From Candidatus Saccharimonadota bacterium (GTDB lineage Bacteria > Patescibacteriota > Saccharimonadia > Saccharimonadales > Saccharimonadaceae): DNA of 64,000 nucleotides. How positions within the stretch are numbered: the first letter of the stretch is position 1; each line of letters begins with the position of its first letter. A model generated the notes under the pieces. It ran no database searches. It was not told where the DNA came from and saw only the letters and a program-made list of their open reading frames with translations. The stretch covers positions 1 through 64,000 of the forward strand of contig JAFWSN010000002.1 in NCBI GenBank assembly GCA_017519305.1. The letters are read 5' to 3'. This document shows, piece by piece, positions 11,930 to 17,488 of this stretch. A program made the position numbers and the translations under genes.

Positions 11930-12283
11930 TCAAACCTTTTTGTATACCAAAAAACCCACCAAAAACAAGAAAATAAAAATCAACCCAACCGTCCAGATGC
12001 TAATTGCACCGAACGAACGTGCCATTAAAAGCATAATTGGGCCAAAAGTAATCACTGCCGCATAGAGATAATCTTTTCCTCCCATCTCTTTTTTGTGGCT
12101 CGTCATACGATAAAACACGCTCATCAAGAAACTAACTAGTCCAAAGATGACGATAAATAGTGTTGTAAAAAATAACAAAACCCCGAGCGGACCTGCTTCC
12201 GTCGGAGATGTCAAATTAAGCACAAGGATGAGTCCTGCGAGTCCGATCATACTTATGCTTAAAATAACTCGGTTACGTTTCAT
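11930..12283 (-). CDS. Four-helix integral membrane protein, 117 aa
   Basis: A small hydrophobic protein with four predicted membrane segments (about residues 7-24, 32-55, 72-90, 96-114), a short basic loop (MTSHKKEMGGKD) after the second and a KKV end. I do not recognise the family. It precedes the acidic protein and the TraG-like ATPase on the same strand with a 17-base gap. A perfect TATAAT (12290-12295) ends 6 bases before the ATG, so the message is either leaderless or has a very short leader; GAGG lies in those 6 bases. Confidence 0.65.
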   Translation of the reverse strand: MKRNRVILSISMIGLAGLILVLNLTSPTEAGPLGVLLFFTTLFIVIFGLVSFLMSVFYRMTSHKKEMGGKDYLYAAVITFGPIMLLMARSFGAISIWTVGLIFIFLFLVGFLVYKKV

Positions 12284-12329
12284 AACCTCATTATATCATG
12301 TTTATGGTTAATTCCCCCAAGTTTATATG

Positions 12330-12683
12330 GAGAAAGCGGGAGGCTATCCGGCACCTAAATCATTACTATTGACCGCAGCCTTGATCCCGCATTCCTCGTT
12401 TTGACCGCTTCACGTATAGTGAAGCATCGATCCTTGCTAGCTTTTTCTTTCATTCTTGTTTATGTTTCCCCAAAGGTGCTAATGAAAGATTTACTAACGC
12501 GCTCTACGCTTATCTTATGATAATCGGTTGGAAACCAATATCATAAGACTTAGCGGAGCTTGAGGTTATTCCTATGTTGTAATTTATGGCTAGAAATAAC
12601 CTGTTCGCCCGCTAAGTGCTTTTTATGGATTTCTCATGTTAATTTGCCTTTTATTTTTCGTTTTTGTTTTAGTCATCTCGACT
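12330..12683 (-). ncRNA. Candidate structured non-coding RNA, about 350 nt
   Basis: No coding frame fits this stretch, but it is dense in inverted repeats: CTTAGCGG/CCGCTAAG (12549-12556 with 12609-12616), AGGTTATT/AATAACCT, a long hairpin around a GGTTG-GAAA-CCAAT tip (about 12503-12560), TCTTTCATT/AATGAAAGA (12446-12489), GCTTCAC/GTGAAGC (12407-12425) and GCGGGA/TCCCGC (12336-12390). A good minus-strand promoter lies just upstream (12690-12718) and would start the RNA near 12683. Strand is inferred from that promoter; a TTTTT run at 12619 would equally fit a plus-strand terminator. It does not match tmRNA, RNase P, SRP, T-box or group I intron signatures that I know. Confidence 0.5.
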
Positions 12684-12689
12684 GTTTTC

Positions 12690-12718
12690 ATACTACCATA
12701 AAAATGGCAAAAGTTCAA
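12690..12718 (-). promoter_or_regulatory. Promoter for the candidate structured RNA
   Basis: On the minus strand TTGAAC (12713-12718), a 17-base spacer and TAGTAT (12690-12695) with a TGG just before the -10. The only thing downstream is the inverted-repeat-rich block 12330-12683; a 17-codon frame starting near 12675 has no convincing ribosome binding site. Confidence 0.6.
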
Positions 12719-12719
12719 T

Positions 12720-13328
12720 ACTGCTTTTGTATAAAAATGTTGTATTTTTTACATTGTGTTTCCCTGTTTTAACCTGTACAAATTTTTTATTGTTTTTATT
12801 GTATTTTTTACAACGATAGCTATATACTTACGCTTATTTTGGCCGTTTTCGTTGTATTCATTACAACAAAAAGGCCAGAATAAACTTTTTAACGATAAGT
12901 TTTTTGCCAACCGACCATATTTATGTCGTTTTTCTAAACGTTTTTATAAGCCGCAGCAAAATACGTTCTGCCATTTGCTTTTATTAAAAATGCCAAACCA
13001 ACATGCCGCCATACATTTTTAAAGTCGTATTGCCGTGTGTGCATTTTTAATATTTTGCGTTGCTTTTTAAAACACAAAAAGTGCCACATTTTATACACGA
13101 ATCAAAACGCGTTTTTTATATACATTCATGCACGCACGTTTTGTGTGAAAATTGCAGCCGCACCACACACAAAAAACTGCACATTATAAACAAAATCCTG
13201 CACGATCCATGCAAAATTACATAAGCCAAACCAGCTTTTAGTAGCATGGTCCCCATATATTTATTTTGTTCACCAAAAACCTGTGGAAAACTCCACAAAA
13301 AAATGTAAAAAATTGTTCAAAAAAACCA
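12720..13328. other. A+T-rich non-coding spacer with TTGTA/TACAA repeats
   Basis: I see no credible gene on either strand; the open frames present lack ribosome binding sites and have low-complexity translations. Between about 12738 and 12867 three copies of an imperfect inverted repeat occur, GTTGTA-N4/5-TACAAC-like (TGTTGTATTTTTTACATT, ATTGTATTTTTTACAACG, CGTTGTATTCATTACAAC). The spacing of about 50-60 bases is reminiscent of tandem operators. Several T-runs and GGCCGTTTT/AAAAGGCC pairing (12841-12875) may act as terminators. Confidence 0.45.
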
Positions 13329-13357
13329 TTGACATAAGCGTTTTTTCGCGATATTAT
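13329..13357 (+). promoter_or_regulatory. Near-consensus sigma70 promoter of the sRNA
   Basis: TTGACA at 13329-13334, exactly 17 bases, then TATTAT at 13352-13357. This is among the best promoters in the window and no protein gene follows it. Confidence 0.85.
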
Positions 13358-13363
13358 AGGGGT

Positions 13364-13522
13364 AGCTTTTGAGTAAAAAAGTTACTCATAAGCCAAAAAC
13401 AAACATCTTAGCCAAAACAAAACTTGCCGGGGCAATGTAAACCTGGCGAGCCAAAAAATAACTCCACACTCTACACAGAAAGACCGGTTTTCCTCGCAGT
13501 TACCGGTCTTTCACTTTGTTTT
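13364..13522 (+). ncRNA. Candidate small regulatory RNA, about 158 nt
   Basis: A complete promoter-to-terminator unit without a convincing reading frame. From the predicted start near 13364 the RNA has a hairpin GCTTTTGAGTAA/TTACTCATAAGC, then an A/C-rich unpaired linker. A second stem CTTGCC/GGCGAG follows with a GG/CC inner pair. A second linker carries the C-rich ACTCCACACTC segment, which could pair with Shine-Dalgarno sequences. The RNA ends in an 11-bp terminator (GAAAGACCGGT/ACCGGTCTTTC, 13478-13512) followed by ACTTTGTTTT. It is not 6S-like, since its ends do not pair. Abundant expression is expected from the promoter. Confidence 0.6.
13478..13522 (+). terminator. Terminator of the candidate sRNA
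   Basis: An 11-bp G+C-rich stem (GAAAGACCGGT with ACCGGTCTTTC) and a T-rich tail ACTTTGTTTT. Confidence 0.8.
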
Positions 13523-13651: not shown

Positions 13652-14006
13652 TGGTGGAGCTGCCGGATACTGCCTCCGGGTCCGAAAAATCACTGGGATA
13701 CCATTCTACGTGCGTAGTTTTCTGTTTCAATCTCGGCTTATGCGATCAGCTGCAGATAACGAAACTGAGGGCCGCCATGACTGCGTTTTCGAGCCATCTC
13801 TCGTCAATTAGATAACCTTATTTCCGTTGTATGATAATCTCTGCCTTACGGAATCTTGGACAAAGACCAGCCTATTAAAATAGATTAGGCATAAGCTGGC
13901 ATGTAAGCAACATGCACAGATTCAGTGTTTTCACTTATTAATACTTACGGTATTCAATCGACACGCCTGGTATCTGTTAATAATTCGTCTAAGCTTTGTC
14001 AGCCCC
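13652..14006 (-). ncRNA. ssrA: Transfer-messenger RNA
   Basis: Rescues stalled ribosomes by acting as tRNA-Ala and then as mRNA for a degradation tag. The 5' end GGGGCTG (14000-14006) pairs with CAGCTCC of the 3' end, followed by ACCA (13652). The 3' tRNA-like T-arm region reads TTCGGACCCGGAGGCAG. Length is 355 nt. A frame closing at 13885-13887 inside a GCCTA/TAGGC hairpin would give a tag ending YMPAYA; another frame ends LMPNLF at tandem TAA TAG, so the tag is not certain. The usual TGGATTCGACGG near the 5' end is strongly diverged (CTTAGACGAATT). The promoter is TGGACT, 17 bases, TAAAAT with a TGG before the -10. Confidence 0.9.
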
Positions 14007-17158: not shown

Positions 17159-17162
17159 GATA

Positions 17163-17488
17163 ATGAGCTCTCAGTAAGCCGGGTTCTGTAGCCAAAAGGC
17201 CGACAATCATCTATCTAGGCCATAAATTGCTCTATGGCTCGAGCGGTAAACGTGCGTCCTCGAGTCAAGGCTAATAGCACTCCTTGCAACCGGTAGGGTT
17301 TGCCGCCAGAGCGTATCGCTACACCCTGCTGTGGGCTCTTACCCCACTCTTTTCACCATCGCCTGTAAAGGCAGTTTTGTTTCTGTGGTACTTTCCCTAT
17401 TCTTACGAACGGTCGCCGTTAGCGACTACCGTACTCTGTGTTGCCCGGACTTTCCTCTTCAAAAGAAGCGATTGTCTTTCGAGCTCCC
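17163..17488 (-). ncRNA. rnpB: RNase P RNA (catalytic RNA component)
   Basis: Catalytic RNA that removes 5' leaders from pre-tRNAs. Read on the minus strand it contains GAGGAAAGTCCGGGC (P4 5' strand), ACAGNN-like CCTTTACAGGCGATGG, and the distal ACAGAACCCGGCTTACTGAG. The GAGCTC ends pair to form P1. Length is about 325 nt. Its 5' end touches the stop codon of the Nudix/RNase H gene, so its promoter (TGATAATAT region near 17495-17505) lies inside that coding sequence, or the RNA is processed from read-through. Confidence 0.93.

Follow-up and report, generated by a model that had tools for sequence, protein, structure and literature searches.

A structured RNA of about 370 nt, encoded on the minus strand of the window (the whole stretch of 64,000 nucleotides that was analysed), is conserved in its genus and in its family of Saccharibacteria, and we regard it as certain that this is a real structured RNA. 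It is a single-copy element flanked by tmRNA and by a gene that encodes a small membrane protein of four helices (Table 1). Saccharibacteria are ultra-small and parasitic; they belong to a vast and poorly understood bacterial radiation of which few other members can be cultivated, and to our knowledge their RNA biology is almost unexplored. The first-pass annotation of this DNA had proposed a structured RNA here, about 350 nt long, of no recognised family and with a promoter of its own; its coordinates proved right, and the fold, the covariation and the Rfam searches agree with it. The promoter, the fold, the covariation and the conservation of a mini-ORF in the 5′ part of the RNA were established by computation; that the RNA is actually transcribed and acts as a separate molecule is our inference. 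Our tentative reading, possible although we would not call it probable, is that it represents a new RNA family of Saccharibacteria, made as its own transcript and gated by the ribosome.

Table 1. Features of the RNA locus and its surroundings in the window
Feature	Coordinates	Strand	Remarks
Structured RNA	12312..12684	-	predicted ends: 5′ ~12684, 3′ ~12312
Predicted RNA promoter	12690..12718	-	TTGAAC 12718-12713, 17 nt, TAGTAT 12695-12690; from sequence
Palindromes TTGTANNNNNTACAA (TTGTA-N5-TACAA)	12738..12868	.	12740-12754, 12799-12813, 12852-12866; upstream of promoter
5′ hairpin AGUCGAGAUGACU	12671..12683	-	relatives GUCGAAAGAC or AAGCUUUU...AAAAAGC; weak alone in window
Shine-Dalgarno-like AAAAGGCA	12645..12652	-	precedes mini-ORF
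Mini-ORF AUG AGA AAU CCA UAA	12623..12637	-	MRNP-stop
P1 5′ strand CUUAGCGG	12609..12616	-	6 nt past mini-ORF stop
P2 hairpin AGGUUAUUUCUA/UAGGAAUAACCU	12563..12602	-	loop CUAGCCAUAAAUUACA almost invariant
P1 3′ strand CCGCUAAG	12549..12556	-	12556-12553 also used by P3
Lineage-specific hairpin UCUUAUGAUA...UAUCAUAAGA	12513..12548	-	not conserved
P3, pseudoknot with P1	12501..12559	-	GCUC 12559-12556 / GAGC 12504-12501
P3 extension	12555-12553 / 12509-12507	-	CGC / GCG
P4 (GUUAGU/GCUAGC) around P5 (UCUUUCAUU/AAUGAAAGA)	12436..12498	-	
P6	12403..12433	-	GAU/GUC plus hairpin GCUUCAC/GUGAAGC, then near-invariant GGUCA
P7	12336..12390	-	outer GCGGG/CCCGC; inner GGCU/AGCC and CGG/CCG; bulge GAU; loop CAAUAGU
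3′ hairpin UUUCUCCA/UGGGGGAA with CUUGGGGG element	12312..12335	-	without U-tract
117-aa four-helix membrane-protein gene	11930..12283	-	-10 box TATAAT 12295-12290 next to ATG
tmRNA	13652-14006	-	Rfam match
RNase P RNA	17160-17487		Rfam match
Second small RNA gene	13329-13520	+	TTGACA-17-TATTAT promoter
TTGTGGAAAACT	13280-13299		upstream of second small RNA

The minus strand of 12290-12690 folds at −114.7 kcal/mol, against −77.6 ± 4.7 for shuffled sequences (z −7.85), and the plus strand of the block folds less strongly (z −4.06). Compensatory changes in relatives, which the first-pass annotation had set as the test of its proposal, were looked for and found. A MAFFT alignment of 28 genus copies, made with no structural input, yields 30 consensus pairs, 21 of them compensated on both sides, and the count becomes 24 of 30 when more distant relatives are added. 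Across a wider set of 36 distinct sequences, 95.1% of cells pair as against 32–50% when the partners are slid by one to three columns, and 219 cells are changed on both sides as against 61 in shuffles, no shuffle equalling any of the five measures; the alignment of this wider set was fitted to R1, a covariance model of the 3′ domain, and so leans toward the structure, whereas the MAFFT-based count is unfitted. All 9 pairs counted in P4 and P5 carry both-side changes, as do 9 of 10 inner pairs of P7.

The 8-bp helix P1, which is the CTTAGCGG/CCGCTAAG stem that had been noticed at first pass and is located at 12616-12609/12556-12549, is maintained through many both-side changes. The hairpin capped by GGAAAC that had been singled out with it is indeed present, but as a lineage-specific insert: the gap between the conserved elements on its two sides ranges from overlap to 473 nt across relatives, which places it outside the conserved core. 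A tertiary pairing of CCUU with AAGG, from the P5 loop to the P6 flank, was dropped, being lost in several aligned relatives.

The named close relatives are Saccharibacteria assemblies, chiefly from the animal digestive tract. A plain DNA search detects the RNA in most of 35 same-genus genomes, the misses being low-completeness assemblies, and in one of 24 genomes from other families, there by a 27-base match only. (The short match in genome G046 from the first DNA search was discarded; the expected core motif is absent from its sequence.) Model R1 misses only two of the sampled genus genomes and also detects the RNA in roughly a dozen other genera of the same family, the only family in which it matched when scanned phylum-wide. 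A further model, R2, retained 5 pairs only because MAFFT had misaligned the core, and it was replaced by R3, a model of the P6-P7 core with the structure given by hand. R3 matches 275 of 392 Saccharibacteria genomes in 85 of 152 genera, some of these sequences having served to build it. Matches outside the family have for the most part low significance (E 1e-7 to 0.01) and are provisional, yet their number far exceeds the chance expectation of about one in a hundred at this threshold. By eye, the upstream regions of family genomes positive for the membrane protein mostly have the layout of the window, namely promoter, 5′ hairpin, P1/P2 element, GGAGCGGUCAGU hairpin and P7 element with its GAU bulge, and locus L250, from another family, holds a compact version of the RNA with a protein homolog behind it. 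We consider it probable that the same structured RNA occurs across the whole Saccharibacteria class. A DNA search of phage records gave no match to the RNA, and five matches to the conserved loop in viral contigs fell in unrelated stretches and were put down to chance. Two assemblies hold two differing copies each (L151 and L152 in one, L153 and L154 in the other), with a separate membrane-protein copy beside each of L151 and L152; these are probably two mixed strains per assembly.

The covariance search that had been asked for at first pass returned nothing on the RNA: no family of Rfam 15 overlaps it in the window, either at gathering thresholds or at E ≤ 5, and in 33 distant-homolog loci Rfam reports nothing but tmRNA and one IS128 match under threshold, both outside the RNA. 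No description was found in the literature, as searched mostly outside subscription journals. A conserved, complex fold whose biochemical function is not established is a trait shared with the raiA-motif RNA (ModT), ROOL, GOLLD and other orphans, but the RNA matches none of their Rfam models. The RNA might be a very divergent version of a housekeeping RNA that has gone unrecognised in this group, SRP RNA for instance, which would fit its probable class-wide occurrence and the silence of the SRP models in this genome (RF00169) and in 40 relatives (RF01854). The same models, however, miss 3 of 14 (RF00169) and 8 of 14 (RF01854) control genomes, so that their silence is weak evidence; neither matches the locus or the distant homologs (at E ≤ 5 and E ≤ 0.05), the RNA has no SRP-like apical loop, its P6 loop is variable, and RNase P RNA and tmRNA each have a gene of their own. 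The SRP identity was dropped after this test, and we hold a divergent housekeeping RNA to be very improbable.

A second tmRNA was likewise rejected. The hallmarks of tmRNA are tRNA-like 5′ and 3′ ends with CCA and a tag frame that has no start codon. The RNA resembles it in being pseudoknotted, in having a short frame that ends by a helix and in lying next to it in the genome, but it has an AUG with a Shine-Dalgarno sequence, lacks tRNA-like ends and matches no tmRNA model, and the normal tmRNA is a separate gene.

The TTGAAC-17-TAGTAT promoter read at first pass scores under the cut-off of a consensus scanner, yet a sigma-70-like −35/−10 pair recurs in the promoter stretch of 73 of 91 relatives, as against a mean of 16.8 in shuffles. 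Upstream of it lie two of the genome's 8 exact palindrome sites together with two one-mismatch sites, and such palindromes precede the RNA promoter in relatives as well; their clustering suggests that a transcription factor acts there. The same operator is seen at locus L126 (~1501-1647), where the palindrome TTGTAAAATTTACAA directly precedes a promoter; the gene behind it begins, judged by eye, like an anaerobic ribonucleotide reductase (an ATP-cone-like N-terminus). At the other end of the RNA, the CUUGGGGG element that closes the 3′ hairpin is found in 77 of 85 genus relatives, and in most members no terminator defines the 3′ end.

The first-pass annotation saw no coding frame in the block, a view that the relatives contradict. 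An AUG followed by a frame of 4–12 codons, and usually preceded by AGG or GGA as a Shine-Dalgarno sequence, is present in the 5′ part of 78 of 90 distinct genus copies, and such a mini-ORF occurs in 44 of 53 copies against a mean of 1.1 when the 5′ region is shuffled (counts that ignore kinship). This conservation suggests that the mini-ORF is translated. Its peptides take the forms MK...KP-stop, MK..KT-stop and MKYK-stop, among them MKRKKPKARNKP, MKVKTKP, MKHYKT and MKYK, with MRNP in the window. With kinship again ignored (n = 78), the last residue is Pro in 38, Lys in 22, Thr in 16 and Glu in 2, and the stop codon is UAA in 51 and UAG in 27 and never UGA, in contrast to the long frames of the window, 11 of 53 of which end in UGA. 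Nearly all the Lys endings belong to the MKYK-type group; the other members end nearly always in Pro or Thr. Inefficient or stalled termination in bacteria has been linked to Pro at the C terminus and, depending on context, to Thr there, although in a direct test in Mycoplasma neither residue affected expression (PMC7246954). The residues found ahead of the stop are only suggestive of a ribosome pause at the stop codon.

The position of the stop is more constant than the length of the frame. Despite the variation from 4 to 12 codons, it lies 16 nt from the P2 anchor in 42 of 78 copies (the mode), which puts it 2–3 nt before P1; this is the distance in most relatives, the window has 6 nt, and some stops in the MKYK-type group are farther away. 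The 3′ strand of P1, in turn, is contested. In 53 of 53 copies GCUY beside that strand pairs with a downstream RAGC (or GAGU) to form the core of P3, several of the copies carrying pair-keeping changes. Three further pairs extend P3 at the expense of P1 3′-strand bases, so that P1 and the extended P3 as predicted cannot both form completely. All three extension pairs can form in 46 of the 53 copies, where 1000 shuffles of partners gave a mean of 40.9 and a maximum of 45; with kinship ignored, the excess is modest.

Judged by the known footprint of bacterial ribosomes, one that holds the stop codon of the mini-ORF in the A site would cover most of the P1 5′ strand and thereby favour extended P3. 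Because of this footprint and of the competition between P1 and extended P3, we propose that the ribosome gates the fold. An RNA of about 370 nt, present in single copy, would be made from its own promoter, and in the window's genus it would also serve as a tiny message. A ribosome would load at the 5′ Shine-Dalgarno, read 4–12 mostly basic codons and reach the stop just ahead of P1, where a last codon for Pro or Thr in most lineages would be expected to slow termination. While there it would mask the P1 5′ strand, and the freed 3′ strand could extend P3 with the downstream GCG..GAGC; with no ribosome in place P1 would re-form. The RNA would in this way read ribosome or termination state and switch shape, and its output may be a trans effect on ribosomes or mRNAs, or one at the membrane that involves the neighbouring protein. 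Such a ribosome-gated switch explains most economically both the genus-specific mini-ORF and the competing helices, and we put it forward with some reserve, the pausing, the switching and the output all being conjectural. The mini-ORF is absent from 12 of 90 genus members, and none was consistently seen in the other genera inspected, which means that ribosome gating is not the universal role of the RNA.

A mini-ORF followed by mutually exclusive helices is also the usual anatomy of a cis-acting leader. Under that reading the RNA would be the 5′ leader of the membrane protein or of a TraG-like operon, with mini-ORF translation controlling read-through or expression as in attenuation. TnaC-type leader switches, which arrest the ribosome at termination, likewise have a short 5′ ORF, often with a C-terminal Pro, that stops just before alternative helices, an arrangement that is conserved here. 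Downstream of the RNA and in its orientation, a homolog of the protein gene is found in the genus, in the other inspected genera and wherever the distant loci can be read, and a U-tract terminator after the RNA, between it and the gene, is rare (8 of 85 genus members). Against this, no more than about ten bases separate the −10 box of the protein gene from the start codon in nearly all relatives, and its closeness indicates that the membrane-protein message is probably leaderless and separately transcribed. The RNA and the gene lie anywhere from about 35 to 600 nt apart, in one further genus (locus L106) a U-tract terminator intervenes, and no conserved terminator/antiterminator pair precedes a gene of the same transcript. 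From TnaC-type leaders the RNA differs further in its use of UAA and UAG only and in a far larger structure that is conserved beyond the switch. Linkage to the gene may be plain synteny, since tmRNA is as strictly linked on the other side, lying upstream on the same strand in all 16 distant loci examined (one copy clipped by the end of the stretch). We judge a leader somewhat unlikely, while counting it, with a membrane ribonucleoprotein, as a live rival to the ribosome-gated switch.

The second of these rivals would pair the RNA with the adjacent protein at the membrane, by analogy with OLE RNA and OapA, and leave the mini-ORF merely to protect or position the RNA. The 117-aa protein has four predicted helices and conserved basic residues, and it co-occurs with the RNA across the family, homologs being found in the genus and in 16 of 17 further family genomes tested, most of them missed by R1. 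OLE, too, is a large bacterial RNA that is structured, has conserved loops and adjoins a gene encoding a small membrane protein with four helices, and it was the colocalisation of OLE with oapA that gave an early hint of OapA binding (PMC12265935). OLE, however, is some 600 nt long and belongs to another phylum. The OLE covariance model does not match the RNA, the neighbouring protein has no detectable relation to OapA, and a mini-ORF is present here, with a Pro/Thr-stop pattern that a membrane ribonucleoprotein leaves unexplained. The protein itself has no Pfam or NCBIfam family above cut-off (EMC6_arch of Pfam matches weakly, below it) and no significant match in a fold search of the PDB. 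We consider such a complex quite unlikely.

Other RNA genes are found close by. The tmRNA is divergent, scoring 77.7 bits with Rfam and escaping ARAGORN. Between it and the RNA, on the opposite strand, is a second conserved small RNA gene, whose promoter agrees with the consensus at 11 of 12 bases and whose orientation relative to tmRNA flips among genomes. It consists of a 5′ hairpin, the invariant unpaired segment AACUCCACACUCUAC and a hairpin at the 3′ end whose loop reads UUUUCCUCGCAGUU; its 15-mer is exact in 151 of 280 loci, other genera included, and no Rfam family matches it above cut-off. Its CUCCAC and UCCUC look like anti-Shine-Dalgarno seeds. Upstream of it, most relatives have the TTGTGGAAAACT element, which contains a DnaA-box-like TTTTCCACA.

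Extended to the class, the ribosome-gated switch would become a core RNA beside tmRNA that reads ribosome state, with a Pro/Thr-stop pause flipping the pseudoknot in some lineages so as to regulate translation or membrane targeting in trans; in this wide form we think it unlikely. A class-wide structured RNA with a Pro/Thr-stop mini-ORF beside competing helices would nonetheless be a concrete case of the ribosome controlling an RNA fold, and if the proposal is true, a trans-acting pseudoknot switch set by a paused ribosome would constitute a ribosome-gated regulatory RNA of an undescribed kind.
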